NCBI RefSeq assembly: GCF_026151205.1
Contig: NC_087075.1
Location: 4,004,359-4,068,358 of the forward strand
Direction: 5' to 3'
DNA: 64,000 bases
Source of the DNA: Bolinopsis microptera
Lineage: Eukaryota > Ctenophora > Tentaculata > Lobata > Bolinopsidae
Part shown: in pieces, positions 8,515 to 51,149 of the stretch
How positions within the stretch are numbered: the first letter of the stretch is position 1
How the letters are laid out: each line of letters starts with the position of its first letter
Position numbers and translations under genes: made by a program
The notes under the pieces: model-generated
The model's input: the letters and a program-made list of their open reading frames with translations, nothing else
What the model was told of the DNA's origin: nothing
Database searches by the model: none

Positions 8515-11500
8515 GGCAGAGGAGGTAACGGACCATGGGCTACCTTCACAGTCCACAGTCGGGGACCTAATATTGCACTGTCTCTAGCTGCTCATCCTAA
8601 AAGGTTCCTGGCTATCAAGGAAAACATGCTCACTGAGGTTAGCACATCAGGGATTAGGATAAATTAATAGTTGATAAATTTAATTATCATTAATTGATAA
8701 TTTATCAATAGTTGATAAATTGTCAATAGTTGATAAATTATCAATACCTAGTCGATAAATAATCAATAGTTGATAAATTATGAATAGTCGATAAATAATC
8801 AATAGTTGATAAATTATCAGTAGTTGATACATTATGAATAGTTGATACATTATGAATAGTTGATACATTATCAATAGTTGATGCATTATCAATAGTCGAT
8901 AAATAATCAATAATTGATACATTATGAATAGTTGATACATTATCACTGACTTACTGACTTAAGTCGGCTTCTTGGTCCGAGCAACTACAATTCCTCGCCA
9001 CACGTCGCGGTCAAGCATAACAGATCTTATCGCTTCAACACAGGAAAGGCTGGTGCCCTTCTTTAGCATGTCCAGAAACGTAAGGTGGGGCCTCCCCGGT
9101 CTCCTGTATCCATGCTGAGGGTCCCAGAACAGAAGTTGGTTTGCCAGAAGGTCGTCATGCCTGGCTACATGTCCAGCCAGTCTCATTCTTCTGGAGGCTA
9201 TCATCGCTGATGGCTTGGGGATGTTGCCGTATGAATCACTGTTGTTGATGATTTGTGGCCAACGTATGTTCAAGGCCATCCGGAGCATTCTAGTGTAGCA
9301 TCCATTGATCCGCTTAGTCATGGATTGGCTTATCGTCCAAGCTTCAGAGCCGTACAGGAGTACGGGCTCAACCGTTGCTCGAAAGACACGGATCTTTAAG
9401 TCCCTGCGCATTCCAGACTTCCAGGTTGTCTTTAACTGATGACAGGCCCCCCATGCCTTTGCTTTCCTAACATCAAAGTCCTTTTCCGCACTCATTATTC
9501 TGCTTCCAAGGTAGACAAAGTCATCTACTTGCTCTATCTCCTGCCCACTTGCTGCTTTAATGACGGTAGAGTCAGACTCAGAGAGATTGACTCTGATGTA
9601 CTTCGTCTTACTCTCGTTGAGGTGAAGTCCAACGGAGTTAGCAGCCAGCTCCACACTGAGGAAAAGATCTTGCGCTTGCTCTGCGGTGTCTGTTGTCAGT
9701 GCAAGATCGTCAGCAAAGTCGACATCTGTCATCTTAACTGCTGGGTATCTCCTGCTTCTTCTGGGGTTGACAGTGAAGCCCAGATCTTTGCCTCTAAGTG
9801 CTGTTGTCATCACATAGTCAATGACAATCACGAAGAGGTAGGGCGCCAGTGTATCTCCCTGCATAACTCCAGCAAGTATAAGGAAAGCTTCAGTCAGACC
9901 ATCCTCCGTGATGACTCGTGCCATGGTTTCCTTGTACATAGCATCTATCAGCCTAACAATGGGCTCTGGTATCCCATATGCCAGGAGTATCTTCATCAAT
10001 ATACCCCTATGAATGCTATCAAAGGCCTTCTTAAAATCGATGAACAAGAGAAGGGCGGTCAGGTTTTTGTCTCTAGCCCCCTCCAAGATCCTCCTTAGAC
10101 ACAGAATGTGGCTGGTGGTACTGCGTCCCTCCCGAAATCCGTTTTGGTTGATCCTCAGGATTTTCTCCATCGCTGGTTTGATTCTGTTAAGGATCATACG
10201 ATTCAGGGTCTTACTAACAATGGACGTAAGAGCGATTCCTCTGTAGTTATCCACTTTAGTTAGATTACCTTTCTTTGGCACAGGCACGATGTTGAGTTGC
10301 CGCCATTGATCAGGGATTTTTCCATCAACCAGAGCGCTGTTACAGAACTCTAGAATCAGGTCGTCCATGTCCACTCTTTTGAGAATCTCTGGAGCTATGC
10401 CATCATCACCATAGGCCTTACCCTCCTTGATCTGCTTCCTCGCCTCCGCTAACTCCTCCCTGCAAAACAGACCAGTCTCTATATCCTGCTGGGGGTGGAT
10501 GGTTTGGATAACTATTTCCTGGTCAGGTACAGATGGTGGTTGACCCAGGAGCTTAGTGAAGTGGTCCTTCCAGCTCTTCAATCTCCCCTCTGCACTACCT
10601 CCATCAACCAGGCTGCATGGCTTGCTTTTCCTGCCATTTATGTCATTAATAAGGTCCCAGCTTTCCTTATTCTTGCACCTGTCAGCAGCATCCTCAGCCC
10701 GCCTGATCCGAGAAACAAGAGTCTCCTCATCAACCTCTTTGTAGCTCACTGCAAGTGCATCCTTACACTCCTTAACTACCTCTCTACTCTCCTCTGTAGG
10801 ATTCTCATGATATGCGTCTTTGGCCTGAAACAGAGTTCTCCTCCTCTCCGATACCCTAGGATCTTGGGAGGGGTTGTTACGTTGTCTTCTTGGGATGGGC
10901 TTAAGCAACTTATGATTGGTTGCTTTCACGGCATCCATAAGCTTTCCGTACTGAATCGTGGGATCGTTCTGCTCACTAGATTCTTCCTCCAGTAGCATAG
11001 AGAATCTGTTTTTCACCTCCACAGAATACAAGGCTTGCAACTCCTTATTCTCTTTGAGCAGTCTGTAGTCATATCTTACTACTCTAGGTGCATTCTGGCA
11101 CTTTCGCAGGCTGAGTTTGACTGAACTAACTACTAGACGGTGGTCCGACCCAAGAGAGTTAAAAGAATTGGAGACAACAGTGTCCTTGACTGAGTTACGC
11201 CACTTCTTCCTTATCAGGATGTAATCAATCTGACTCTTGCTCAGTGTTCCGTCAGAGAGATACGTCCATAGTTTACCGGGACGTTTCTGGAATCGGTGGT
11301 TAGTTGCCTCAAGGTTTCCCTCCAACAAAGTATCCCTGAGAAGCGATCCGTTTCTGTTGGATACTCGATGCCAGTACCAACCTGAATCCTCCTCATTCAA
11401 TCTGCTAAGATGGGCGTTAAGATCACCAACAACCATTAGCAGATGATGGGCTGGTACCTCTCCTAATGCAGATCTTAGTCCCTCGTGAAAGTCCTCTGCC

Positions 11501-14500
11501 TCTTCATTTGATGCTGCTTCAGTGGGACTGTACACCGTTATTACTGTAAGCCGTGGGTTTCCATCAAAGGATATGAGAAAAATTCGCTTCCCAAAAGATT
11601 TCATGAGACTCACTGCTTTGTAGGCCTGCTTGGTCAGCATAAACCCAACTCCACCAGTAGCAGCTTGTCGGGTGTTTCTCCAAGCAGGTGTGGTCACCAG
11701 GTGCACACCCTTCTCAAAACTCTGGATCTTGATCTCCTCCTCATGCACAATCCGGTGCTCTTGTACCCCTAAAACTGCAACTCTACTCTCAAGGAAGAGC
11801 GATGCTAACTTTATCCTCTTATACTGTTCCCTAACAGTACGAACGTTCAGTGTCCCGATGAACGTTTTCCTACTACACGACACAACGCTGCCACTATTAC
11901 TGCTCTTCTTTTCCGGTTCTGTACTTATCCTGTTGTGTTGTGATGGGTACGACAGTACATCATCGCCTGGCCCTCCCAGATTGGGTTTTAAGCCAACCAA
12001 GTCATAAAACTGCCGACCCTCCACAAGATTCGTGTTAGGGGCTTTAACCCTAGTGCTGTTTAAATTCATCATATTTGTTTTTCAAATAGCTAAATGACCC
12101 CATGGAGTCCCCTCCATGGTGGCAAATGGTCATTTCCCAAAGCCACGCTACCGGAACATTTGGGTTTGAACCGCAGGAACATCAACTTGAGTTGAACTTT
12201 TTATCAGACTTTAACCAATCGAACTGTCTGCTCAGGGTAAATGATGTGGTGAGTTCTTCTTCTTCTTCTTCTTCTTCTCCGACACTACCCGAAGGTAGCC
12301 ACTCCTGTCCCTGAGCTAGGGGGGCTAGGGTGTCAGCATAAGCTAAACTTTTGCAGGAGCTAGCCCTCTCCCTGACTGCCCGTTACCCCGGGTATGGGGG
12401 GTCATCCTTTCCACCAGAGCGTGGTCCAATCATTTGGGTCGTAGTGGAAAGTCAGAGGATATAATGACCAACACCTCCAGCTGATGCTCCGCACCTCTCT
12501 TCTTCAGAGGCTAGGAGTTCGAGAGACAACTGACGTTCCTATCTTGTCTCTCCGGGGGTCAGCTATCTACCCGTCGCCCATCCTGATTCTTGCCTGGAGT
12601 TCACCACCATCCATCGTCCAGTATCCAGTCTTCACCACGTGGAGGCATCAGGAGGACTTGTTGCAGAGAGGCTAAGGTCGACTTATTCGACTAGGTACTG
12701 ACAGGGTGGCACTAGCGGGGTACCTCCGATTCACAGCCCTGGCTTTTATAGTGAGAGCACAGAACTGCTAGTCAGCGGTGATCTTTTTGATCACCTACGC
12801 ATCTACAACCATTGGAAGACTAAAAATATACATTATCAATAGTTTATAAATTATCAATAGTTGATAAATTATCAATAGTTGATAAATTATCAATAGTTGA
12901 TAAATTATCAATAGTTGATAAATTATCAATAGTTGATAAATTATCAACTATTGATAATTTATCAACTATTGATAAATTATCAATAGCATATATAATAATC
13001 ATTTCGATTAATAAGGAACATTTAAAAAACCTTTAATATAAATAAAGCCTCGTATCTTAACAAGTAATAACTAATGTAACTCAGGGTACTGGTGGCAAGT
13101 TCTGTACGCTGATTGTCAAGCACGATCCTGGTGACGGGACTGTAACTCTTGGTGAGTGAGGTTTTCATTCAATGATCAATTTATTTCATAGTATAGACTA
13201 TAGATTCGTGATGTCTAATTTTGCGTTTTAGGTGTGGGTCTATATGTTATGCTTCTTCTGTAAATTCACTACTTAGACTGTTGATGTAATTTCTGATTTA
13301 GGGAGGAGTTATTGCTCGTTCTATGACGTCATCATCATCTATGAGTATGACGTATCATTACTGGAAACACACATTCAATAAACTTCTTTTTGCTTATGTA
13401 TGTTTCATTAACCTGCCCTTTAACGATTACTCCTTGTCCAAGATATATGGCACCGGTGTATTGTAGGGACTACCGGTGTAAGATCCAACAGCATCTTGTT
13501 CTCTTCATTGTGCTGATTCCGGGAAGCATTCTCTTTACGCTCTAATAATAATCATATTAAAAATCGAGAAATCGGTCATTTAAAAATGAGTAATTATAGG
13601 CCTGTTTATGATTGCAGCACCAAAATATATGGCGCTCCCACTAATTACTAAATCGCTTGATCATTGAAAGTAATTATAATTGATGTATTCTACTAGTCTT
13701 GATCGCTGATTCCAAATCACCCATCCCATGAAATAGTAGATATGCCGATATGGATCCTTGAAATGTTATAAACACGTGACATGATAGTACAGGGTGTTTC
13801 AAGATTTTTTGAAGGAGTAAATTAAATGAAATCGGTTTGGAAATACTTGTTAGGTCTAACATTTTTGTTATTTTTTGCAGAATTGTGTCAAAACCCATTT
13901 TTTTCACAATTCTACAATCTTGTGCAGAACACAAATTCTATTGCGTAGGGCTAATGCTATGGTTGTGGTAAGGGTTGTCATGGTTATGATTAACTTCCGG
14001 GTTATGGTTAGGTTCGTTCGGCTGCAAAACCGTTAATCCAAGCCACGTGATAATTATTGGGCTAGTGAAATAATATGAGTGTCAGTGTATAATTTATGTA
14101 CATTGTACATCAGTAAGTAATTCAATAATAACCTTACGAAGTTAAAACACTGTTCAAAAGTTATTTGTTTTATTTTTATTTGGATTCGAATGTCAAAGTT
14201 CAAATTTAGGTCTTTAGATCGACAACTATGGTAACTATGGTAACTATGGCATGGCATAGTTGACTGTGACAGAAAGTCAGATAAAGATGACACAGGTTTT
14301 AGAATGATAAAACTCATTTAATTTTATCACAAACCGTACATTCAAAAAGGTTTAAAATTTTTACATAATTTTTAATCTTTAAATCTGCCTGGAGAATATT
14401 TCAACAGTCGCACTTTTTGTACGACAGAATTTCTTATTAGGTCTTATTTATAGCTGTTCGGTAATGTGATTAGAGTGGTATCAATTGTCAATACTGTGAA

Positions 14501-34654: not shown

Positions 34655-35815
34655 ATGACTGACTGAAAGAAGACTGAAAGAAGCTGGCAGCATGTTAAAA
34701 CGGCAAGTTATTGTAATATAGCAGTGTTGTTGACTGAAAGAAGACTGAAAGAAGCTGGCAGCATGTTAAAACGGCAAGTTATTGTAATATAGCTGACTGA
34801 AAGAAGACTGAAAGAAGCTGGCAGCATGTTAATACGGCAAGAAGACTGAAAGAAGCTGGCAGCATGTTAATACGGCAAGTTATTACACTGAAAGAAGCTG
34901 GCAGCATGTTAATACGGCAAGTTATTGTAATATAGACTGAAAGAAGCTGGCAGCATGTTAATACGGCAAGTTATTAGACTGAAAGAAGCTGGCAGCATGT
35001 TAATACGGCAAGTTATTGTAGTATAGCAGTGTTGTTGACTGAAAGAAGACTGAAAGAAGCTGGCAGCATGTTAATACGGCAAGTTATTGTAATATAGCAG
35101 TGTTTTATAATGACTGACTGAAAGAAGACTGAAAGAAGCTGGCAGCATGTTAATGACTGACTGAAAGAAGCTGGCAGCATGTTAATACGGCAAGAAGACT
35201 GAAAGAAGCTGGCAGCATGTTAATGACTGACTGAAAGAAGCAGGCAGGATGTTAATACGGCAAGAAGACTGAAAGAAGCTGGCAGGATGTTAATACGGCA
35301 AGAAGACTGAAAGAAGCTGGCAGCATGTTAATACTCTGCAAGAAGACTGAAAGAAGCTGGCAGCATGTTAATACGGCAGGTTATTGTAATATAGCAGTGT
35401 TGTTGTTCTGAAAGAAGCTGGCAGCATGTTAATACGGCAGGTTATTGTAATATAGCAGTGTTGTTGTTCTGAAAGAAGCTGGCAGCATGTTAATACGGCA
35501 AGAAGACTGAAAGAAGCTGGCAGCATGTTAATACGGCAGGTTATTGTAATATAGCAGTGTTGTTGTTCTGAAAGAAGCTGGCAGCATGTTAATACGGCAG
35601 GTTATTGTAATATAGCAGTGTTGTTGTTCTGAAAGAAGCTGGCAGCATGTTAATACGGCAGGTTATTGTAATATAGCAGTGTTGTTGTTCTGAAAGAAGC
35701 TGGCAGCATGTTAATACGGCAGGTTATTGTAATATAGCAGTGTTGTTGTTCTGAAAGAAGCTGGCAGCATGTTAAAACGGCAAGTTATTGTAATATAGCA
35801 GTGTTGTTGTTCGTG
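34655..35815. repeat. Complex tandem array grown from the terminal exon of the guanylate cyclase gene
   Basis: Units of about 36-66 bp mix GACTGAAAGAAGCTGGCAGC, ATGTTAATACGGCAAG and TTATTGTAATATAGCAGTGT. The last block (35785-35815) is the real 3' end of the coding exon, including its stop codon. The other copies lie downstream in the 3' flank. Read on the minus strand many units have the form CTTCTTTCAG|AACAACAACA...TAA, that is, an acceptor-like site, a coding fragment and a stop. Confidence 0.9.
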
Positions 35816-38800
35816 TATCTGGATATTTCTTCACTACTGTTCCTCTCTCCAATCAGCCAATGTGTCTCCATCTCCCCTTTTCCCTGCAAACAAACAATAG
35901 ATCACTTTCACTTTCACTTTATTGCACACAAGATACTGAAGAACAGCTTTTAGTTCACCACTATATAAAAGCTTCATACGTTTTTCGACCAAATAGTTAT
36001 TAAATGTTCACTTCACAAATTTTAACCTTGACGAAGATAATGCCTCTTTTAGATATGAGAAAACCTTCCTCCAGGATGACACCACAAACGTCTGTGATTT
36101 GTATTCTCATGCCTGTTGTATTATTTCATTAAATTTGAGTTTTTAATATAAAAACAATTAAGATATAAGCAGATTGTCAAAAAGACGTGGCTTTCACAAA
36201 CAATTAAACAGAAAAAAAATCAAGAAGGTCCAAAACTTCAACTCTTTTGCAAGTGCACCTAAACAAGACGATTTCATTCTAGCAGCAGTGTTGACGGTGT
36301 CTCCGAAAACACAGAATCTGGGTAACTTTACTCCGATAATCCCAGCTGCACATGGTCCTGTAATAACGTTGTCTGGTCATAACAAATGTATATCAACCCC
36401 GTAGTTATGATAAATACACTGGTAAAGTTAAAAGTGGTTTCCAACTGCAAATAACCAGAGTCGTCTCGAATACAATCGATAACAAAAACGTTCACTCTTG
36501 CCTCTTTACCAAATTTAAGATAAAGTACAGACCTGAATCCCACCTGTCACACTTGATCCCGGCATCCTCTTCTTGCTGGGACACTACAACTTAGAGGTAA
36601 ACTAACCATATAAATGCTATCCTCTTCCAGTCCCTAAAAAAACAAAAAACAAACCTGAAGCGATGCCCTGTATGAGCCTAAAACAGACAAAATCCCCATG
36701 AACACCCAGCTGCAGACCCCGACACATAACACTCCTCAGTCCCAGAGCAGTGAGCGCTATCTCCGAGCAGTGTTTGGTTGTGGGACTTCTGTCAGGTAGA
36801 CCCGATACCACCAAACACTCTCCTGCTGCTGTTTCTATTTCGTTTACCTTGTGGGATTCAAGCACCTGGTGGAGGGGCTGTGTTGGAGCATTGTTAAAAC
36901 AAAACACTTATAGGTCACTAGAATTGGTTACTAGGTTACTAGAACTGGTTACTAGGTAACTAGAACTTGTTACTAGGTAACTAGAACTTGTTACTAGGTT
37001 ACAAGCACCTGGTGGAGGGGCTGTGTTGGACCATTGTTAAAGCAAGACACTTTTAGGTCACTAGAATTGGTTACTAGGTTACTAGAACTGGTTACTAGGT
37101 AACTAGAACTTGTTACTAGGTAACTAGAACTTGTTACTAGGTTACAAGCACCTGGTGGAGGGTACTGTGTTGGACCACTGTTAAAACAAGATACTTATAG
37201 GTCACTAGAATTGGTTACTAGGTTACTAGAACTGGTTACTAGGTAACTAGAACTTGTTACTAGGTTACAAGTTCCTGGTGGAGGGTGCTTTGTTTGACCA
37301 TTGTTAAAACAAGTCAAACAAGTGACTAGGTGAGGGGGCGGGCCGCAGCACTCTTGTTGTCGGAACCTATCTACAGTAACAACTATAATCTGGTTGGTAT
37401 ACTGAGAAACCTTGAGGTAGATCCATGAGCAAACAAAGAACTATGATGACGAAGTATCTCGATTTCCTGTCTGTCAAAGAATTTATTGTCGTCAAAACAA
37501 GATATACTTATTGAAACAAGTAAAGTTAGGTTAAGTAAAAAGTACTTTTATATTAAATAAAGATTTATTTGAATTGTAGATTGGTTCTTTAAAGATTTAT
37601 GGAGAGGAATTACGACGGAATGTAACGTCAGGGTATGTTGTATTGATCTGAATACTTAAAGGAAGGTAAACCATATTTGCGCATATCATTAAGAAACTGA
37701 CCCTGTCTCAACCACTTGCCATAATACAGATATCCACACTTGTCTTAAATATGAGTGCTTATTTCCTCACCAGTGAAGCAGTAATACTCACCAGTCATCA
37801 GTGTCTACATTAATTAATATGTAACGTGCATTATTGAAAAATATTAGAATTTTCTTGTTACGCTATAAATGAGAAAAAATAATCTTACACAGTTACACAA
37901 CTAAAAGTTTGCAATTTACCTCTGCAATCCTCGTGTAAAACGCCTCTAGGAACCGCACATAAGCAAATGGACTCATATCTCGTGCAGCTAACCGCTGTGA
38001 CGTGAGTTTTCTTTAGACTAAACTAATTATAATCAAATAATTAAGTAATTAACTATTGTAGCAAATTTTCTCATCTTTAAACGTTATCCACGTGTAATAA
38101 TACATATTATATATATATTATTAAACGAATGAAAATGTTTCATCTAATAACTGCGGAGTCAAAAATTTTAACAAATTAGTAATAAATTAGTTAATCATTG
38201 GATCAGTCTCTTACCTGGAAATCAGCTAGATCTGCGAATAGAACTGTAGCACTCTGATAACTTCCTACATACGGTGTGTTGGTTTCACGGCACCTGCAAA
38301 ATATTTATAGGTTTAAAAATATATTATGTATAATGTTTAGTAATGTAAAATGTATTTATATCCACCAGCGTGCGCTTTTTCGCATAGCGGGCTCTCGCCA
38401 GCCCGCTGTCAAAGGGCCCGATATCTCTACAGCCCGCTCATGATATAGCCCGCTAACAAGTGACATTTAATTTGACCAGTAGCAATATAGCCCGGAGTTC
38501 TCTAAAATATTTTCAGTTTCTGTATCGTCTCCATGTGAAATTCCTTATTACACTGACTATATATACATTTTATTTTTGTGTCCGGTAGGGCTGCTCATGC
38601 AGCTCGTGAGCAGATGACATGATACTTTGATTTATATCAAAGTTATCATAACACACTACATAATACACATCAGCACTATAATCCCCCTATATTATTGATA
38701 TTCATCGTCACTGACATTACATCCATTATTCCCACGGCCCAGGAATGCAGTGCATCTCCAGCCCCTATATACGACACAGCCCTTTATGATTGGCTTACAT

Positions 38801-41800
38801 TGAACACGTGACGTGTTACCATGGTTACAACAATTAGTGGCGACCTTTTCTAGAGTTGACTTTTATACAAGCTCCATTGTTTATTTATAAAATTATATAT
38901 TAACTGTAATACGCCCGCTGGTGGATATAATCCACATCACCTCGACCCGCGGGCGGAAAAATCGTATAGCACTCGGGCCCGATGGGCCCTCCGTGCTATA
39001 CGAAAATATGTCCTCCTCGGGCTAGCGCCCTCGGGGACATATGAAATATTGCACGCGCGTGCGCGTGCAATATTTTGTTCCGCCCGCGAGTCTCCGGTGA
39101 TATGTATATATATTGGAGCTTAGTTTCATTCAATTATTCTGTTAAACTTCTTTGGTATTTTAGTGACCGCAGTTTACGATCATTAGCATTTTATGGAGTT
39201 AAGTTATTGAGTTAAGTTTTAGGGAGACGAAGTTGATGAATGAACTTTGTTTGAGAATTTAATTGGACTCTGACCCCTGCAGGTCTGTTAGACCCACAGG
39301 AATTGAAATTAAATTATAAACTTTGGAGGACAATAACCTTCTCATTTCTCAGTTTCTTCTCAGTTGCCACTTAAGCGTTCATACACGACACATCTTACAA
39401 CACTTACCATCATCCTACATTACACATTCTGATTCCCCCGGCATCCTCCCGTAGGACTGCCATACCCCAGAGGTAGGCAAAGCTGAAAGCATCCACATGC
39501 TATCCTTTCGTGGGCCACCCAGGCTACACAGTACACAATAGGGCATAACCTTCAAATTTCCTTAACCACACAATATGGCATCATCCGGAACAAACCTTCT
39601 AATTTCCTTAACCACACAATAGGGCATCATCCGAAACAAACTTTTTCATTTCCTTAACCACACAATAGGGCATCATCCAGAACAAACCTTTTCATTTCCT
39701 TAGCCACACAATAGGGCATCATCCAGAACAAACCTTCTCATTTCCTTATCCACACAATAGGGCATCATCCGGAACAAACCTTTTCATTTCCTTAACCACA
39801 CAATAAGGCATCATCCAGAACAAACCTTTTCATTTCCTTAACCACACAATAGGGCATCATCCAGAACAAACCTTTTCATTTCCTTAGCCACACAATAGGG
39901 CATCATCCAGAACAAACCTTCTCATTTCCTTAACCACACAATAGGGCATCATCCAGAACAAACCTTTCCATTTCCTTAACCACACAATAGGGCATCATCC
40001 AGAACAAACCTTCTCATTTCCTTAACCACACAATAGGGCATCATCCAGAACAAACCTTTCCATTTCCTTAACCACACAATAGGGCATCATCCGGAACAAA
40101 CCTTCTCATTTCCTTAACCACACAATAGGGCATCATCCAGAACAAACCTTTTCATTTCCTTAACCACACAATAGGGCATCATCCAGAACAAACCTTTTCA
40201 TTTCCTTAACCACACAATAGGGCATCATCCAGAACAAACCTTTTCATTTCCTTAACCACACAATAGGGCATCATCCAGAACAAACCTTTTCATTTCCTTA
40301 GCCACACAATAGGGCATCATCCAGAACGAACCTTCTCATTTCCATAACCACACAATAGGGCATCATCCAGAACAAACCTTTTCATTTCCTTAACCACACA
40401 ATAGGGCATCATCCAGAACAAACCTTCTCATTTCCTTAACCACACAATATAGGGCATCATCCAGAACAAACCTTTTCATTTCCTTAACCACACAATAGGG
40501 CATCATCCAGAACAAACCTTCCCATTTCCTTAACCACACAATAGGGCATCATCCGGAACAAACCTTCTCATTTCCTTAACCACACCATAGGGCATCATCC
40601 AGAACAAACCTTCTCATTTCCTTAACCACACAATAGGGCATCATCCGGAACAGCAGCGCCTCCGACATGTCGTTTTGCATTTTCAGTACTTTCATTGTCG
40701 TCTTCGTTCTTTCGCTTTGAGCCTGTGAGAGGAGCCGAGCTTTACACCAACATACAAATTTATTAATACTCATTGATTTCATACAATTTGTTTAAAATGG
40801 ATTTTACCGTAAGGTCTGTACTATTCACTTATTGGCCCATAAAATATTAAAATCGCTAAAATATTCAAAATCTCTACTATCAGATCTACACCTTGAGGTA
40901 CAGATAGATTTGTTTTATCTTTCTGATGTCGATGACAGCAAAAACAGAAAGAACAAGGCATAGTATGATGAGGACAACTTCTGTAGCGTACTGGTAGAGG
41001 ATAGCTTTATTGATAAGACTGGTCATGTTCTCGTTCACTGTGAAGGCTACTGCATCTTGGATCGCTTTTATGTGCTGAAGGTGAAGTAATTACAGATGTA
41101 ATTCGGACAGTTTTAGAGCTTATTATTTAAACTTCGTGAAAATTCAATACGGTTCAATATAATCATATTACTATATAGCAATGCACTATTTTGTACAAAT
41201 TGTCACATGGTATCCTATCAACTCAGCAGCTATAAAAGTATAAACACGCAACATAATCATAGTAGTATGAATGTAATAACTAATATATGCTACTAATCAA
41301 TATTACAGGTAGTAAGTTACAAATACGTATTATAATGTTACATACCATTACTAAAGTACTAAGTTACTACTAATCACGGTCCCTTGCAGGTATTAAATCT
41401 ACAAACCCACCTCATCGTAGCTCATGCCGATGTTAATCCAGAACAGAGCGATCTTGTGGGACTGCTCCACCGGTGCATTGTCTCTAATCTGCTTGAGGAG
41501 AGTCCTCAGATCACCGCTGAAACGGCATTTTAATTGGAAGTAGTCATGGAAACGGTATTATTAAACATAGTTTGGATTTTTATTCCGATAAATAAGTCCA
41601 ACTTCAAAGCAGCTGTCTTACTAAAGAATCTCCTAATCACATTGAAGACATTGTATACTACTAGTTGATAGTTTATATTACCATGAAGCAGTGTATTAAC
41701 AATAACGTAAAAGACTTTGTGTTTGGAATGATGGTATATCATGTTTGATATTTCATATTATATAATATTGGTAGCAGTGGACAATGTCCGTTACCTCTGT

Positions 41801-44800
41801 ATTGTGCTCTGCCAATTGCAACACTTGAATTACTTTATTGTATAATTATACTGTTTGACACTTTTTAGTAACTGCAGAAGATGCATCTGACCATTTTCAA
41901 TAGTTCCTACTTTTAGTTTTATCATGTTTGAAATGTATACCTGTATTTGAACAGAGACTGGTATATTTTCGATCTGATTGAGTCCCCGCCATAAATTTGG
42001 GAGAATTGCAGTGAATAGTCGTGCAGCTGAAACGAGTGTTAGTTAGAAAAATAATGCTTGTTCGATTGGTTTTAGCCAGTAGATACTTAGATAGTATACC
42101 AGAATATTTTGAAGTAATGATACATCTTCTGCATCATTAACCCAACATAATGTTTAAAGTGATTCCGATGATAAATCCAAGAAGTGTCCAACATAGCTGG
42201 CATGTCAAAATGAGCCAGATGTAATATTAAAGCTACATTCAAAGCACCAATAAAGAGGGATTGTATGTCGAGGGAGATAGTTACTAGGTTACTAGGTTAC
42301 TAAAACTCACCTAGGTTACTAGGTTACTAAAACTCACCTTCAAAGCACCAATAAAGAGGGAGTGTATGTCGAGGGAGATGGTTCCGTTCATGAAGTACAT
42401 CACTCCCACGCTCTCTATCAAGAAGAGCTGGTACCTGCTAAAGATGATCGTCTCGTACGTGACCTGCAGTTATTAGAACTGGTTACTAGGTTGCTAAAAC
42501 TCATCTTAATTTTTTAAAAGACAAGACTAAAAAAGACTAACAAAATCGTCCACTCGAGGTACAACAGATTCCTTACTGTGAAGCTTAACAGAATTGATTG
42601 AAATGATTACCTTGGTAACCTTGGTAACTCATTTAAAAAAGTTAAGACTATAACCAATCACTTGACTCACCAAAGTGTTCCACACAAGTGAAAAAGAACC
42701 ACCCTGTAACGACTGAATTACTCCTTCATAAATAATCTTAATCATGATGTGATAAGCTTTAAAGGCCTCTTCTGCACGCAGCCTCTGTGCGTCAATAAGT
42801 CCCCGTAGCTTCTCCAAGTCCGCTATAAATTCAAGCTTACTCGCGTAGTTGGTTTCAAGTGTCTTGGGCCACGTTGATATGAGAGCTGAGAGATAAAAAT
42901 ATCATTTAGAATATTTTAAAATGGAATTTTGTGTGGACAAGGTTATTAGTAATTAGTATTACTATGATATTTTGGAGAGGTTCACTGTTTATCAGTCTCA
43001 TGATAAGATAATAATTTTAGGGATAATATCCGGTAGTAGAGACTAGGTAGGAAAAGTGAAACTACTGTTTAGGAGGAAACGCGAGCTTTAAGTTTGCTAC
43101 ACTTTTATCAGGCTCAAATTATTTGTTATATAGTAGTGTTGAAAGTATTAAAGGTTATTAATACTTTCAACACTACTATATAAAAAATAATTTGAGGCTC
43201 TAATGATGTAGTTTTACGAAGATTTCAAGCCTTATGTTGTGTGTTTCCTTTCGTGTTCAAAAGCATTATAAAGGTTATTTGTTATATAGTAGTGTTGAAA
43301 GTATTAAAGGTTATTAATGTATCACAATTTCTCTCTTGGAATTACAAAAACCAGCTTCATTTCTTTTAATAATCTGACCTAAAGATTCGTTGCTCTTTAT
43401 TCTGAGGTCACTGACAACCACAACTGGGTAGTCGAGGTTTCCGTATATGTACATCATAGTCCACAACATCTCAGCATTCAGTCCTTCTACTGCTTTAGAA
43501 AACTGAAATAAAATAGTCAAGTAAAAATAAATAAATTAGTCCCTCATAAGCTTTAGGAAGCTGAAATGTATTAGTCCCTTAGAAAATGAAATACGCTCAT
43601 ACAGGGTGAGTTGAAAATAGTGTGTGGAATGTAAAGATCGATAATTTTTTTTATGAAGGAGCAAATTTTGAAAGGTGTATTGCTATCAGTTCATAAACGT
43701 TACACATTTCATTGTTGCATCTCATTCGATTCTGACTCATAATTTGGATGATTTTTGGCAGTTTCCCAAAAATTCGTAAATTCGTCCTAATGGGGTTCTC
43801 AAATCGCGTGCCCTGAAAATCGAGTCTACAAATATATCTTCTCCTACATATTTTGCGCAATCACCCTGAAACTTTCAGGATATGTTCTAGGGATCATTTA
43901 GAAGAGATGAGCCAGACAAAATTTTGAGATAAGCCTTTAATACATTTTTGTAGTTCTTCAACTGATATAACAGTGTAGTGAGCTGAAAAATAAAGATAAA
44001 AAGTCATTAAAACTACTTTAGAAAAATAAAATAGAATTGATTAAAATATCCGCAAAGTTATTTAAGTAAAACTAACTTGTTGGCTGCTTCCCACTAGATT
44101 GTGATTAGCACGACTTTGTCCGTGCGACGTATTTCCCTGGAATACATACAATTATGTAACGTGATGGAAATATTTTAAACGGGTAATAACCTGTCCAAAC
44201 CCAGGATACATAACATGAAGACTTTGTTGTAACTTTGTATGAGAAGCATTAATACTGATAATTAAATAATATCCAGTTGAAGGAAAATAAATGAAACAGG
44301 AAGTTAGGAATATGGGCAAATGTTCGGCGTCAACACCATCTTCAGACTCAATAAATGTATTTAAATGTAGTTGTGAAAATAGTTTAAAACTTATTTTATC
44401 TATATTATATTTTTGTCTATCAATTTTTTTCTATTATCAATTTTTTATAAGGGTAACTTAGTAACTGGTTACTAGGCTACTAAAACTGGTTACTAGGTTA
44501 CTAGAACTGGTTACTAGAACTGGTTACTAGAACTGGTTACTAGAACTGGTTACTAGAACTGGTTACTAGAACTGGTTACTAGAACTGGTTACTAGAACTG
44601 ATTACTATAACTAGGTTACTAGGTTACTAGAACTGGTTACTAGGTTACTAAAACTGGTTACTAGGTTACTAGAACTGGTTACTAGGTTACTAGAACTGTT
44701 AACTAGGTTACTAGAACTGGTTACTAGGTAACTATAACTGGTGACTAGGTTACTAGAACTGGTTACTAGGCTACTAGAACTGGTTACTAGGTTACTAGAA

Positions 44801-47725
44801 ACTGGTTACTAGGTAACTAAAACTGGTTACTAGGTAACTAGAACTTATTACTAGGTTGCTAGAACTGGTTACTAGAACTGGTTACTAAAACTGGTTACTA
44901 GAACTGGTTACTAGAACTGGTTACTGGCACTGGTTACTAGAACTGGTTACTAAAACTGGTTACTAGAACTGATTACTATAACTAGGTTACTAGAACTGGT
45001 TACTAGGTTACTAGAACTGGTTACTAGGTTACTAAAACTGGTTACTAGGTTACTAGAACTGGTTACTAGGTTACTAGAACTGGTTACTAGGTTACTAGAA
45101 CTGGTTACTAGAACTGGTTACTAGAACTGGTTACTAGAACTGGTTACTAGAACTGGTTACTAGAACTGGTTACTAGAACTGGTTACTAGAACTGGTTACT
45201 AGAACTGGTTACTAGAACTGACTACTATAACTAGGTTACTATAACTGGTTACTAGGTTACTAGAACTGGTTACTAGGTTACTAGAACTGGTTACTAGGTT
45301 ACTAGAACTGGTTACTAGGTTACTAGAACTGGTTACTAGGTTACTCAAACTGGTTACTAGGTTACTAGAACTGGTTACTAGGTTACTAGAACTGGTTACT
45401 AGGTTACTAGAACTGGTTACTAGGTTACTAGAACTGGTTACTAGGTTACTAGAACTGGTTACTAGGTTAATATAGAACTGGTACCTGGTAGATATGGTAG
45501 CAGGAGTAACAAACCACCGCTAAGATGGGAATTATAATACAGACTATTATATTCCTGCTCTTCTTCTTGTACTCGAAACCTTTGTCGTCCTGTCACATGA
45601 TGTTTAATTCCAGTTACACCACAAGATACAAAATAGAATAACAAGGTCACATGTTACAGTAAGAAAAAGATTCAACGAACCCTTATACTTTACCGCGGCT
45701 GGTTCCTTTTTCTTAAACTCTGTGGTAAATTGTGGTTTTACAGTAGTGATAATTACGGTTATTCTGCCTCTTGATCGCTCAGTATAAATTGTAAAATAAA
45801 TTGTCTTACCATAATATATTGATCTTTATACGACCCGCTTATCATTGGTTATAATTCTAGCTGGTCGAGTCGATTAGTGGTAGACGGAGTCAGTATTTGA
45901 GAAAAGGTGGATACAAAGTCATATCAATCGTAGAAAATCATAGAGTTTAAGTTTTAAACAGTTTTATCGCAAAATATAAGAAAATACTTACATTCACTAC
46001 GCTGTCCACAATATCATTAAAATCATTTTGTATTTTATCCCAGGAATTTACTGAATCTGAAAAAATAATTTCATGATAATTTGATCGTTTGATAATGAAA
46101 CATATCGCATCAGGAATATGAGGAATAAGAATTTGTAAAATGAGATAATGACTGATCAGGAAAGCATGTCCACGAAATACTTGATAGTGATCGCATGGGG
46201 CCAACAATGCTGAGTGGAAGGGTTGAAGACAAATAATTAAAATTACCAGCAATCCTGAGTGAAAGGATTGAAGACAGATAATTAACTTTACCAGCAATAC
46301 TGAGTGAAAAGGTTGAAGACAGATAATTAACTTTACCAGCAATACTGAGTGAAAGGATTGAAGACAGACAATTAACTTTACCAGCAATACTGAGTGAAAA
46401 GGTTGAAGACAGATAATTAACTTTACCAGCAATACTGAGTGAAAAGGTTGAAGACAGATAATTAACTTTACCAGCAATACTGAGTGAAAGGATTGAAGAC
46501 AGATAATTAACTTTACCAGCAATACTGAGTGAAAAGGTTGAAGACAGATAATTAACTTTACCAGCAATACTGAGTGAAAAGGTTGAAGACAGATAATTAA
46601 CTTTACCAGCAATACTGAGTGAAAAGGTTGAAGACAGATAATTAACTTTACCAGCAATACTGAGTGAAAGGATTGAAGACAGATAATTAACTTTACCAGC
46701 AATACTGAGTGAAAAGGTTGAAGACAGATAATTAACTTTACCAGCAATACTGAGTGAAAAGGTTGAAGACAGATAATTAACTTTACCAGCAATACTGAGT
46801 GAAAAGGTTGAAGACAGATAATTAACTTTACCAGCAATACTGAGTGAAAGGGTTGAAGACAAATAATTAAAATTACCAGCATTCCTGAGTGAAAGGATTG
46901 AAGACAGATAATTAACTTTACCAGCAATACTGAGTGAAAGGATTGAAGGCAGACAATTAACTTTACCAGCAATACTGAGTGAAAAGGTTGAAGACAGATA
47001 ATTAACTTTACCAGCAATACTGAGCGAAAGGGTTGAAGACAGATAATTAACTTTACCAGCAATACTGAGTGAAAGGGTTGAAGACAAATAATTAAAATTA
47101 CCAGCATTCCTGAGTGAAAGGATTGAAGACAGATAATTAACTTTACCAGCAATACTGAGTGAAAGGATTGAAGACAAACAATTAACTTTACCAGCAATAC
47201 TGAGTGAAAAGGTTGAAGACAGATAATTAACTTTACCAGCAATATTGAGTGAAAGGGTTGAAGACAGATAATTAATATCAAATAACGGAGTAGTTCGCTG
47301 TTTATTAGTCTCATGATTGAAATACTGATATCTGGATATTATCCGGTTGGAAGAGACAAGGACAAGTGAAACAAGGAAGTTAGGAGTAAGGGCAAATTTT
47401 CGGCGTCAACGCCATCTTCAGGCTCAATAAATGTAATAGATTTGTGGTGTTGTAATTAGTTTAAAACTCATTACAAATCTATTACATTTATTGAGCCTGA
47501 AGATGGCGTTGACGCCGAAAATTTGCCCTTACTCCTAACTTCCTTGTTTCACTTGTCCTTGTCTCTTCCAACCGGATAATATCCAGATAACAGATAATTA
47601 ACTTTACCAGCAATACTGAGTGAAAGGGTTGAAGCACCGGGAGACTTGTTCTTTTCCCCTTTAATGTGCACCTTTTTCTTAGGGAGGAGCCGTCTCCGTG
47701 ACTTGTACAGCTTATTAATCCTCAT
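35785..47725 (-). CDS. NIT-domain receptor guanylate cyclase
   Basis: Nineteen exons: 47608-47725, 45992-46056, 45694-45717, 45485-45589, 44077-44136, 43944-43982, 43379-43502, 42671-42885, 42338-42463, 41941-42026, 41411-41516, 40892-41074, 40610-40722, 38215-38293, 37920-37994, 36697-36865, 36259-36357, 36027-36112, 35785-35883. Every junction keeps phase, giving about 656 residues. A basic N-terminus ([14 protein letters not shown]) leads to TM1 (about 82-104) and a helical extracellular nitrate/nitrite-sensing (NIT)-type domain (about 125-385). TM2 (about 388-404, [16 protein letters not shown]) and the signalling-helix linker ([20 protein letters not shown]) precede the cyclase domain: [13 protein letters not shown] (first metal Asp kept), [36 protein letters not shown] and [11 protein letters not shown]. 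The Cys of PRFC is the residue that favours GTP. The usual GDAYM is AGECL, so the second metal Asp appears lost. The 36697 donor is unclear (see findings). Introns contain arrays seeded from exon ends. Confidence 0.9.
36866..37332. repeat. Tandem array of a splice-acceptor/exon-start segment, 3.5 units
   Basis: Units of about 143 bp (shorter later units) start CAAGCACCTGGTGGAGGG and continue with AACAATGG and GGTTACTAGAACT-type blocks. On the minus strand each unit repeats CCCCTCCACCAG|GTGCTTG, the acceptor and first bases of the exon at 36697-36865. Confidence 0.9.
38357..38929. mobile_element. TIR-bounded insertion inside a cyclase intron
   Basis: Ends TATATCCACCAGCG (38357-38370) and CGCTGGTGGATATA (38916-38929) are perfect inverse copies, and the match continues imperfectly inward. 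The left subterminal region holds repeated AGCCCGCT motifs. No coding capacity and no clear target duplication. Confidence 0.55.
38948..39088. other. Cloverleaf-like cluster of perfect inverted repeats
   Basis: An 11-bp closing stem (38948-38958 CGCGGGCGGAA with 39078-39088 TTCCGCCCGCG) encloses three consecutive hairpins. The first is 38962-39003 (arms TCGTATAGCAC/GTGCTATACGA, inner GGGCCC pair). The second is 39006-39042 (arms ATATGTCC/GGACATAT, inner GGGC/GCCC). The third is 39045-39074 (14-bp arms AATATTGCACGCGC). The block is GC- and CpG-rich in an AT-rich intron. Confidence 0.75.
39543..40645. repeat. 46-bp tandem array grown from a guanylate cyclase exon end, about 24 units
   Basis: The unit includes GGGCATCATCCAGAACAAAC and TTCCTTAACCACACAATA. 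On the minus strand it equals the 3' end of the linker exon ([13 protein letters not shown]) plus its donor (AGAAG|GTTTGTTCTGG). The array fills the intron from the exon end leftwards. Confidence 0.95.
42237..42337. repeat. Partial duplicate of an exon end plus donor
   Basis: 42237-42280 repeats the last 40 or so bases of exon 42338-42463 (CAAAGCACCAATAAAGAGGG) with small changes. Between the copies the donor region (AACTCACC) with GGTTACTA units is itself doubled. Confidence 0.8.
43020..43315. repeat. Foldback-family fragment with a 38-bp imperfect hairpin
   Basis: 43113-43196 forms a hairpin with arms CTCAAATTATTTGTTATATA... / ...TATATAAAAAATAATTTGAG. Flanking pieces (GATAATATCCGGTAG, AATGATGTAGTTTTACGAAG) match sequences at 47329 and 8213, so this is a dispersed repeat family. 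Confidence 0.65.
43603..43868. mobile_element. Possible MITE with CAGGGTGA ends
   Basis: Left CAGGGTGAGTTGAAAAT and right ATTTTGCGCAATCACCCTG share an inverted core (CAGGGTGA) followed by similar bases. The match is short and no target duplication is clear. Confidence 0.4.
44260..44400. repeat. Diverged single-arm copy of the 47329-47589 foldback element
   Basis: AATATCCAGTTGAAGG, GAAACAGGAAGTTAGGA and TTCGGCGTCAACACCATCTT match the foldback arm in order, without the second arm. Confidence 0.7.
44455..45478. repeat. GGTTACTAGAACT-type tandem array
   Basis: About 1 kb of mixed 8-bp (GGTTACTA) and 13-bp (GGTTACTAGAACT) units fills the intron after exon 45485-45589. The array abuts the donor; the first intron bases (minus strand GTACCAGTTCTA) resemble the repeat GTAACCAGTTCTA. 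Confidence 0.9.
46207..47277. repeat. 45-bp tandem array grown from guanylate cyclase exon 1, 24 units
   Basis: Each unit contains AACTTTACCAGCAATACTGA and GTGAAAAGGTTGAAGACAG. On the minus strand it is the 3' end of exon 1 (STLSLSIAG) plus the donor TTGCTG|GTAAAG. The true exon end is at 47608-47640; the 47329-47589 foldback separates it from the other 24 copies. The unit is a multiple of 3 and open in two frames, which produces 455- and 355-codon artefact ORFs. Confidence 0.95.
47329..47589. mobile_element. Foldback element with 117-bp perfect arms
   Basis: Arms 47329-47445 and 47473-47589 are exact reverse complements over all 117 bases, with a 27-base loop. Inserted within the 45-bp array in intron 1. 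It carries TTCGGCGTCAACGCCATCTT. No ORF. Confidence 0.9.
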
Positions 47726-49351: not shown

Positions 49352-50655
49352 GCTTGTACTTGTACTTGAAAAGGTCTCCTCCTAGTCGTTGGAGTGGCCT
49401 GCACCACATAGTAACTCCTTTCTCCGGTGTATTAGACCTCTCCAGTGAACCCTGTCTGTAGCTTGTTGTTCTGCATCTTCTATCGAGATGTTATCGACAA
49501 CTGTGAAGATTGCTGCATCCTGCTGGACACATGACAACCAGTTTTTCCGAGGTCTACCTCTTGAACTTTTACCATGCTTTGGGATCCAGTGCAGAAGATA
49601 GTTGGGTATTCTTTCTTCTGCCATCCTCACCACATGGCCAAACCATCGGAGTCTAGCTGCTCGCACGAAAGTATCAACAGGGGCGATGTTAGCCCGCTTA
49701 AGTACATCAGCATTTAGATACATGATAAAACCATTTGATTTTCAGGATTCTCCTCATATCAGACATCTATGATGGTACACCTCAAATCTTTTCATCTGCG
49801 TCTGTGTGGTATCCCATACCTCACTTCCATAAAGCAGTATAGTGAGAACAGCCGCTTTGTAAATCCTGATTTTAGTTGGAGTCTTGATGTTGCGACTGTA
49901 CCATATACTGCTGAGCTGATAGAATGCCCCAAAGGCCTTTTGAATTCGAGCTGATAGTTCTTTGTCAATTGTTCCATTCGCACTGATGATTGCACCCAAG
50001 TAAGTGAAATTGCTGACCTGCTGTATTGGGAGACCTTGATGTCCATAGTGTCGTCTTTAGAATACGGCCTCTGCGATGCACTTTTGCTGACAACCATGCT
50101 CTGTGTTTTGCCAGCATTAATCTTTAGACCCGCATAGGCACTGTATTTGCAAAGAAGGTCAGTGGTTTCCTGGAGCCCTTCTTTTGAGTTATCTAACATG
50201 GCCATGTCATCAGCGTAATCAGTGTCCAAGAGATGTTTCTCTTCTACCCCGGGGGCTGGCAGCTGTAATAAAGCCCCCTTGCTAATGACCTTGTTCAGTT
50301 CCATAAGGTATGCCGAAAAATTCAAACAAAAGTTGACTGGTGGTCCCTGTATATCACCTTGCCCAGTTCCCGAGTTGACATCAAACCAACCTGTAACCTC
50401 TCCATTGACCCTAACAGCACTAACTGTGTGAGTGAAGAACGCCTTCATAATTCTAATGTACTTGTCAGGTAAGCCGTAGTGTTGCATACTTCTCCAAATG
50501 AACTGCCTGTCAATCGAATCAAAAGCTGCTTTGAAATCAACAAAATTAATATACAGAGGGATATTATACTCAATGCATTGGTGTATAATACAGCGGAGTG
50601 AATAAACCTGGTCAATACATGAACGATTCTGTCTAAAACCACTTTGATTCTCCCG
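49352..50655 (-). pseudogene. 5'-truncated, frameshifted LINE reverse transcriptase
   Basis: On the minus strand the fragment starts within the RT domain (NQSGFRQNRSCIDQVYSLR), continues with FVDFKAAFDSIDR, GTGQGDIQGP and the catalytic YADD, then shifts frame near 50020 (VSNFTYLGAIISANG) and again near 49750 before the C-terminal LRWFGHVVRMAEERIPNYLL and GRPRKNWL segment. The tail is an AAGTAC repeat at 49352-49372. Sequence differs clearly from the intact LINE at 8959-12072, so it is another family, RTE-like in style. At least two frameshifts and the missing endonuclease make it inactive. Confidence 0.85.
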
Positions 50656-51149
50656 GAGGAATTAGAACCACGTTTCTATAATCATTATTGCATTCCAAAA
50701 TAAATGTCTTCATTTTCATTTTTCCTCCATTTATTTTAAAGTGTGCTGATAATGAAAACGAGTAGATTCGGAGTCTCTATAAAATCAAGTCTTGTGATGC
50801 AATAGTAGTCATGCTAAATAATATTCTATCCTGGAATTAGAATCCAATGAAATATAATGCGTATAATATCTTTTTAAGATTGACAGATCTTCCCCGACAA
50901 GTTCACCGAACTTATTCAATCAGGTTACAAAGAAATAGACCCAATGTTAAAAATACACCAAGCCCAAAAATATAATTCCTGCGCATGCCGGAGTTATGTG
51001 TGTTGTAATCATGCTAAATAATAATTTATCCTGGAATCCAATTAAATATAGTGTGTATTATATCTTTTAAGATTGATTATCGGATGAAATAAAGTCAAAT
51101 TCTTTAAAACAGTGTGTAAGAAACGTCTACCCCGACAAGTTCTCCAAAT
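50656..51149. other. Between a LINE remnant and the MFS gene
   Basis: Contains a diverged duplicate of the MFS 3' end: 50887-50990 (CCGACAAGTTCACCGAACTTATTCAATCA...) parallels 51131-51215. Otherwise nothing seen. Confidence 0.5.

Follow-up and report, generated by a model that had tools for sequence, protein, structure and literature searches.

Why should one gene carry several tandem arrays that each copy the end of the exon beside them, together with its splice site or stop codon? The question is raised by a 64,000-nucleotide stretch of DNA from the ctenophore Bolinopsis microptera (the window; C4:4004359-4068358 in the genome of 264.65 Mb and 232 contigs that we searched). In a hand-built model, a gene of 17 exons runs along its minus strand (window positions 47725-35785); every intron is GT-AG and 16/16 intron phases are consistent. 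This phase-consistent splicing, a match to PF00211 and an alignment with the M. leidyi protein P0001 identify it as a NIT-like, class III (adenylate/guanylate) cyclase gene. Its product, 649 residues long, contains the class III cyclase domain (PF00211, E 7.5e-37); a match to NIT (PF08376), at 22.9 bits, lies slightly below the cut-off of 24.9. Since the product is 97% identical to P0001 from end to end, and 83% identical to P0002, the protein of a paralogue in the same genome, the junctions of the window gene appear sound at the protein level. In the protein alignment, P0001 is joined without gaps at the equivalent exon-adjacent sites, and relative to it the window-gene product is unaltered across the array junctions. 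Elsewhere the window holds two LINE-like open reading frames with RVT_1 reverse-transcriptase domains, at 8959-12081 (1039 residues, with an endonuclease domain as well) and at 49792-50661.

A preliminary description of this locus, made from its sequence, had held that four arrays copy the ends of their own exons: the donors of exons 1 and 11, the acceptor of exon 14 and the stop-codon end. TRF and BLAST searches of the locus with 60-nt probes (30 nt either side of each exon edge) bear this out for all four and add two more: a small fifth array made of copies of the exon 7 donor, and a sixth, which abuts the exon 3 donor. All of these lie on the minus strand. Exon 1 (coding part 47608..47725, donor G|GTAAAG) has an array of a 45-bp unit in 23.9 copies (46201..47275), 23 of them crossing the boundary by probe; the unit joins 27 nt of the end of exon 1 to 18 nt of intron, and under a loose pattern that counts the source copy all 24 units have GT at the donor place (GTAAAG in 21, GTAATT in 3). 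A foldback element, also new to the description, separates exon 1 from its array (47325..47593; arms of 121 nt at 47325-47445 and 47473-47593, 99% complementary). By eye, foldback-like sequence occurs again near 44310-44360. Exon 11, the linker before the catalytic domain (40610..40722, donor AAG|GTTTGT), has a 46-bp unit in 23.8 copies (39556..40652), with 22 boundary-crossing copies by probe.

The unit at the acceptor of the catalytic exon 14 (36655..36865, CACCAG|GTGCTTG) is longer, about 143 bp (36859..37313; TRF gives 143 bp x 2.8 at 36859-37265, and overlapping rows reach 37313), and the probe finds three crossing copies; these three intronic copies of the acceptor region each include 7 nt of exon 14 and an embedded GTTACTAG repeat. 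At the terminal coding part of exon 17 with its TAA stop (35785..35883 in the gene model), an irregular array with a main unit of 61 bp (34660..35812; TRF rows of 38-160 bp) derives from the final 27 nt of coding sequence in the exon, eight codons and the stop, plus 3' sequence. It has 22 core copies, 14 of them with the stop-codon stretch, and the probe finds 11 copies across the stop-codon end. The exon 7 donor (exon 42338..42463, AAG|GTGAGT) is followed by a 27-bp repeat in 2.1 copies and then by the exon 7 tail once more (42225..42339); this single downstream repeat aligns over 59 nt at 90%, and the probe finds it once (88%). At the donor of exon 3 (45485..45589, CAG|GTACCAG), an array of GTTACTAG type (44463..45482, TRF) starts 2 nt past the junction and abuts the boundary without crossing it. 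Six weak probe matches of 68-84%, at the donors of exons 3 (one), 4 (two) and 8 (one) and at the acceptor of exon 5 (two), are treated as chance.

Arrays of this form have been seen in other animals. The human interferon-induced gene 6-16 (G1P3/IFI6) has a 12-bp repeat over a splice donor; it is a single short array giving repeated donor sites, and we know of no tie between it and intron gain. The primary description of the class known as mirages is reportedly that of Canestro (2002). The preliminary description, which knew of no named process that makes arrays at splice junctions, was mistaken on this point: in the parts of PMC3087553 and PMC3902484 drawn on here, minisatellites at the exon-intron boundaries of the amphioxus Adh3, globin, TnC and PGBD5 genes are called mirages, and these sources report that splicing is undisturbed, that array length varies even somatically and that mirages are a proposed route to new introns. 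As in amphioxus, so far as those parts describe it, the ctenophore units cross 5' or 3' splice boundaries and come in several lengths, AG/GT signals are kept in many copies and a link to intron gain is proposed (PMC3087553, PMC3902484). In the window gene, repeat units span the exon-intron boundary at the donors of exons 1, 7 and 11 and at the acceptor of exon 14, donors and acceptors both being affected; the array at the stop codon of exon 17 falls outside the definition of a mirage. Unlike the amphioxus cases, the present one comes from another phylum and involves a single gene with arrays at four of its splice boundaries and at its stop-codon end, with up to about 24 copies, as well as two splice boundaries in the paralogue, and here intron presence and absence can be compared between paralogues. 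The titles on ctenophore tandem repeats and introns and the parts of the ctenophore genome papers that we consulted contained no boundary arrays, which does not prove their absence. The ctenophore case, the density of arrays in one gene and their tie to introns found in one paralogue only are absent from the portion of the literature consulted.

The units differ in where their sequence is found. For the units of exons 1, 11 and 17, the only match among the genomic candidates that were scored is their own locus, and these three arrays are of local origin. Matches to the GTTACTAG-type repeat, at least 179 of them, are scattered through the genome. In the window gene this repeat makes up the arrays beside the donors of exons 3 and 7, adjoins the acceptor of exon 7 as well as its donor and lies inside the exon 14 unit. 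Of the earlier claim that the arrays had separate local origins, the part concerning exons 1, 11 and 17 stands and that concerning exon 14 stands only partly; likewise, the units of exons 1, 11 and 17 are unrelated in sequence as had been said, whereas the exon 14 unit and the arrays at the exon 3 and 7 donors have GTTACTAG in common. A single repeat family behind all arrays was considered and rejected on the same matches.

The dispersed repeat could instead be the active agent: an introner-like or satellite family that inserts, makes introns and leaves the arrays as its traces. Its places at exons 3, 7 and 14 would fit, as would the fact that I3 and I13, the third and thirteenth introns, are introns of the window gene only. 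Introners are the same element in the introns of many genes, but the exon 1, 11 and 17 units contain no GTTACTAG and were found nowhere else among the scored candidates, and the arrays of the paralogue have other sequences. We regard this explanation as improbable. False tandem copies introduced by the assembly are a far more remote prospect, even with one single assembly to go on: there are point changes and a single 2-nt insertion among the copies, the foldback element interrupts one array, and independent arrays are present in the paralogue.

That paralogue (C2:4545602-4551275, locus L035) was chosen by protein homology only. Spliced alignment gives it 15 exons, and its start codon presumably lies in an exon upstream of the coding DNA analysed. 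A second match to residues 2-48 of its protein, 98% identical, lies about 52 kb upstream (G000:C2:4493208-4493348). TRF finds a 34-bp unit in 10.3 copies at the P3 acceptor (L035 1106-1453) and a 30-bp unit in 3.5 copies at the P11 acceptor (L035 4665-4771), P denoting introns of the paralogue. By TRF extents and reading, these arrays reach 9 and 12 nt into the paralogue exons, at other junctions than in the window gene, so that acceptors are array-affected here too; a third intronic array, of 11 bp, lies 198 nt from its boundary. That a paralogue not selected for arrays has them over two other boundaries is new, and two boundary-crossing arrays (by TRF extent) among three intronic ones has a chance probability of 0.036. 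In the window gene, which was picked for this very pattern, the probability of at least five boundary-crossing arrays among six is 1.3e-4 if founding units fall uniformly on the gene. A self-BLAST repeat test (at least 25 nt, 80%), also applied to myosin genes, flags 5/33 window-gene edges whether 6 or 10 nt are required on each side; in the paralogue the 6-nt setting flags the P3 exon alone and the 10-nt setting flags nothing, and one TRF array is missed.

How general the pattern is was judged against exon edges that, outside these genes, are ab initio predictions. They come from a home-made exon finder trained on the window gene and on myosin domain matches, which on its training data recovers 14/17 window-gene exons and covers 28/34 HMM-matched myosin segments in frame, and which is weak on random DNA (at score 10 it yields 10 chains from the real sequence and 5 from reversed decoys). 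A first junction solver working from HMM coordinates left some of the myosin introns unresolved and was abandoned. For random DNA and the rest of the window, exons with less than 30 nt of unique body were left out, as were chains scoring below 10 (edge count) or 12 (array distances); the distance counts take in arrays of period at least 10 and length at least 45. A myosin intron (L029 5883-5981) opens with a 48-bp repeat in two copies, 1 nt past the predicted donor.

The preliminary description had proposed a common mechanism acting at exon-intron junctions, such as R-loop breaks or slippage where junctions are transcribed. On a reading of this kind, junction-directed mutation, through breaks at R-loops, transcription-replication conflict or repair from spliced or lariat RNA, would make arrays preferentially at exon ends, genome-wide. 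Outside the window gene and with the paralogue included, 7/39 intronic arrays are found no more than 10 nt from a boundary, where 2.3 are expected (P 0.0007; Fisher test on distances, P 0.0024), and for the myosins alone the count is 4/19 against 0.64 (P 0.002). Together with the two crossing arrays of the paralogue, these counts lend the proposal slight support: arrays seem to occur preferentially close to exon edges. Against it, none of the 131 predicted myosin exon edges (six loci, two extended loci counted once) lies inside a local repeat, and by TRF extent just one myosin array in 19 extends over a boundary, by 1 nt, where 0.76 are expected. Predicted edges also do no better than reversed decoys in random DNA (1/34 against 2/12) or in the rest of the window (1/28 against 2/6), and the arrays of these two sets alone show no significant excess near boundaries (1/17, Fisher P 0.18), the junctions being predictions throughout. 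Within the DNA examined, exon-end copying is concentrated in the window gene and its paralogue, and we consider a genome-wide process of this kind unlikely.

Pure survivorship offers another account, in which duplications would arise anywhere, those in exons would be purged and those at junctions or in introns would persist, several falling in one gene by chance in a genome rich in minisatellites. Arrays are indeed very common (200 kb of random DNA from the same contig holds 53 of period at least 10 and length at least 80, together 29.9 kb), the copy contiguous with the exon is the one kept in the window gene, and the rate at which myosin arrays span boundaries fits chance. Simple tolerance explains much of the pattern, a duplication across a boundary leaving one good exon copy. 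What it fits less well are the crossing counts in the window gene and in the unselected paralogue and the excess of boundary-abutting arrays elsewhere, and it does not predict a tie between arrays and gained introns. As the whole explanation, survivorship is possible, with the balance somewhat against it.

Such a tie is suggested by aligning the two genes. Twelve intron positions are common to both; I3, I11, I13 and I14 occur in the window gene only and P11 in the paralogue only, and a further paralogue-only intron, P14, lies in a non-alignable tail that has no counterpart. In a more distant cyclase (L036; 43% identity over 86 residues), one uninterrupted open frame spans the positions of I11, I12 and I13, and a second spans those of P11 and I14. 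At I11, I13, I14 and P11, therefore, parsimony would most simply make the introns gains. L036 may itself have lost introns, since it also lacks intron 12, which both paralogues share; the alternative would take two losses per position. Two arrays of its own were noted in L036: a GACA array that begins a few nucleotides past an apparent exon end (1630-1770; the exon finder ran through it) and an 11-bp array that ends about 5 nt ahead of the next predicted acceptor (1802-1913).

Boundary-crossing arrays are present at three of the four apparent gains (I11, I13 and P11) and at 3/26 other introns (I1, I7 and P3), a difference with a Fisher P of 0.018 in a test that has only four gains and was chosen after the data were seen. 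Other ways of counting give 3/5 lineage-specific against 3/24 common introns (P 0.046), or 3/6 with P14 included (P 0.075); I14 would be a gained intron without an array. At P11 and I13 the array may be later than the intron, because its units are mostly intronic. For the same reason the simple reading after Rogers, in which an exon segment becomes the whole intron, was by eye unsupported for these two introns.

Intron 11 is of another kind. The consensus of its 46-bp unit is identical to the last 46 coding nucleotides of exon 11 at 41/46 positions, all 23 intronic units begin with GT and 22/23 finish with AG, and for 22 of the 23 extra copies, removing the copy as a GT...AG stretch restores exon 11. 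Exon 11 is not matched by the opening 3 nt of the unit, where the donor GT lies; since the paralogue, which has no intron here, reads GTTGTTGTTC upstream of the matching stretch, this GT could be ancestral exon sequence. The intron is absent from both comparators, L035 and L036, the latter lacking I12 as well, and a duplicated exon segment can be named as the source of the array, though not of the remaining 1.3 kb of the intron. Today's acceptor lies about 1.3 kb past the array and is not the AG of any copy, so that a founding splice within the array can only be inferred. In this remainder, at 38354-38935, an inverted-ended element ATATCCACCAGCG ... CGCTGGTGGATATAAT was seen by eye.

Introns gained by tandem duplication have been collected before, in ATP2A1, in fission yeast, where 24-bp exonic repeats are spliced as introns, and in a potato RdRp (all from the part of PMC4974935 drawn on here). 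I11 resembles these cases, as that part presents them, in its tandem exonic segment, its AG/GT-flanked copies and its unchanged protein; it differs in having 23 intronic copies in a minisatellite and a present acceptor outside the array, and in being known here from DNA alone (PMC4974935). On these grounds I11 may have arisen as an exonic tandem duplication.

The reading that we think probable is that these are mirage-type minisatellites, grown neutrally on the intron or 3' side of exon ends, and that I11 was most likely born by tandem duplication of coding DNA. A short local tandem duplication, presumably by slippage or unequal exchange, would capture the end of an exon, splice site or stop codon included. 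The copy still joined to the exon body would remain the one used in the RNA, and added copies would land on the intron or 3' flank side; because they fall outside the exon end in use, the array would be nearly neutral and able to grow. At I11 the duplicated segment would have been essentially exonic, its copies running from GT to AG, so that splicing them out would have restored the original exon; a new intron would thus have come, most likely, from tandem-duplicated coding DNA and then have undergone minisatellite growth.

The source sequences of new introns are seldom found, and the mirage model of intron gain has so far been argued from a few amphioxus genes. More tentatively, and as a conjecture that we would not yet back, minisatellite-forming duplication at or inside exon ends might be a continuing engine of intron birth in this ctenophore lineage, arrays of an exon's own edge marking recent gains. 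If boundary arrays do mark young ctenophore introns, a genome-wide comparison of Bolinopsis with Mnemiopsis could put the mirage model to the test, and, if true, the same process would be at work in two distant animal phyla.
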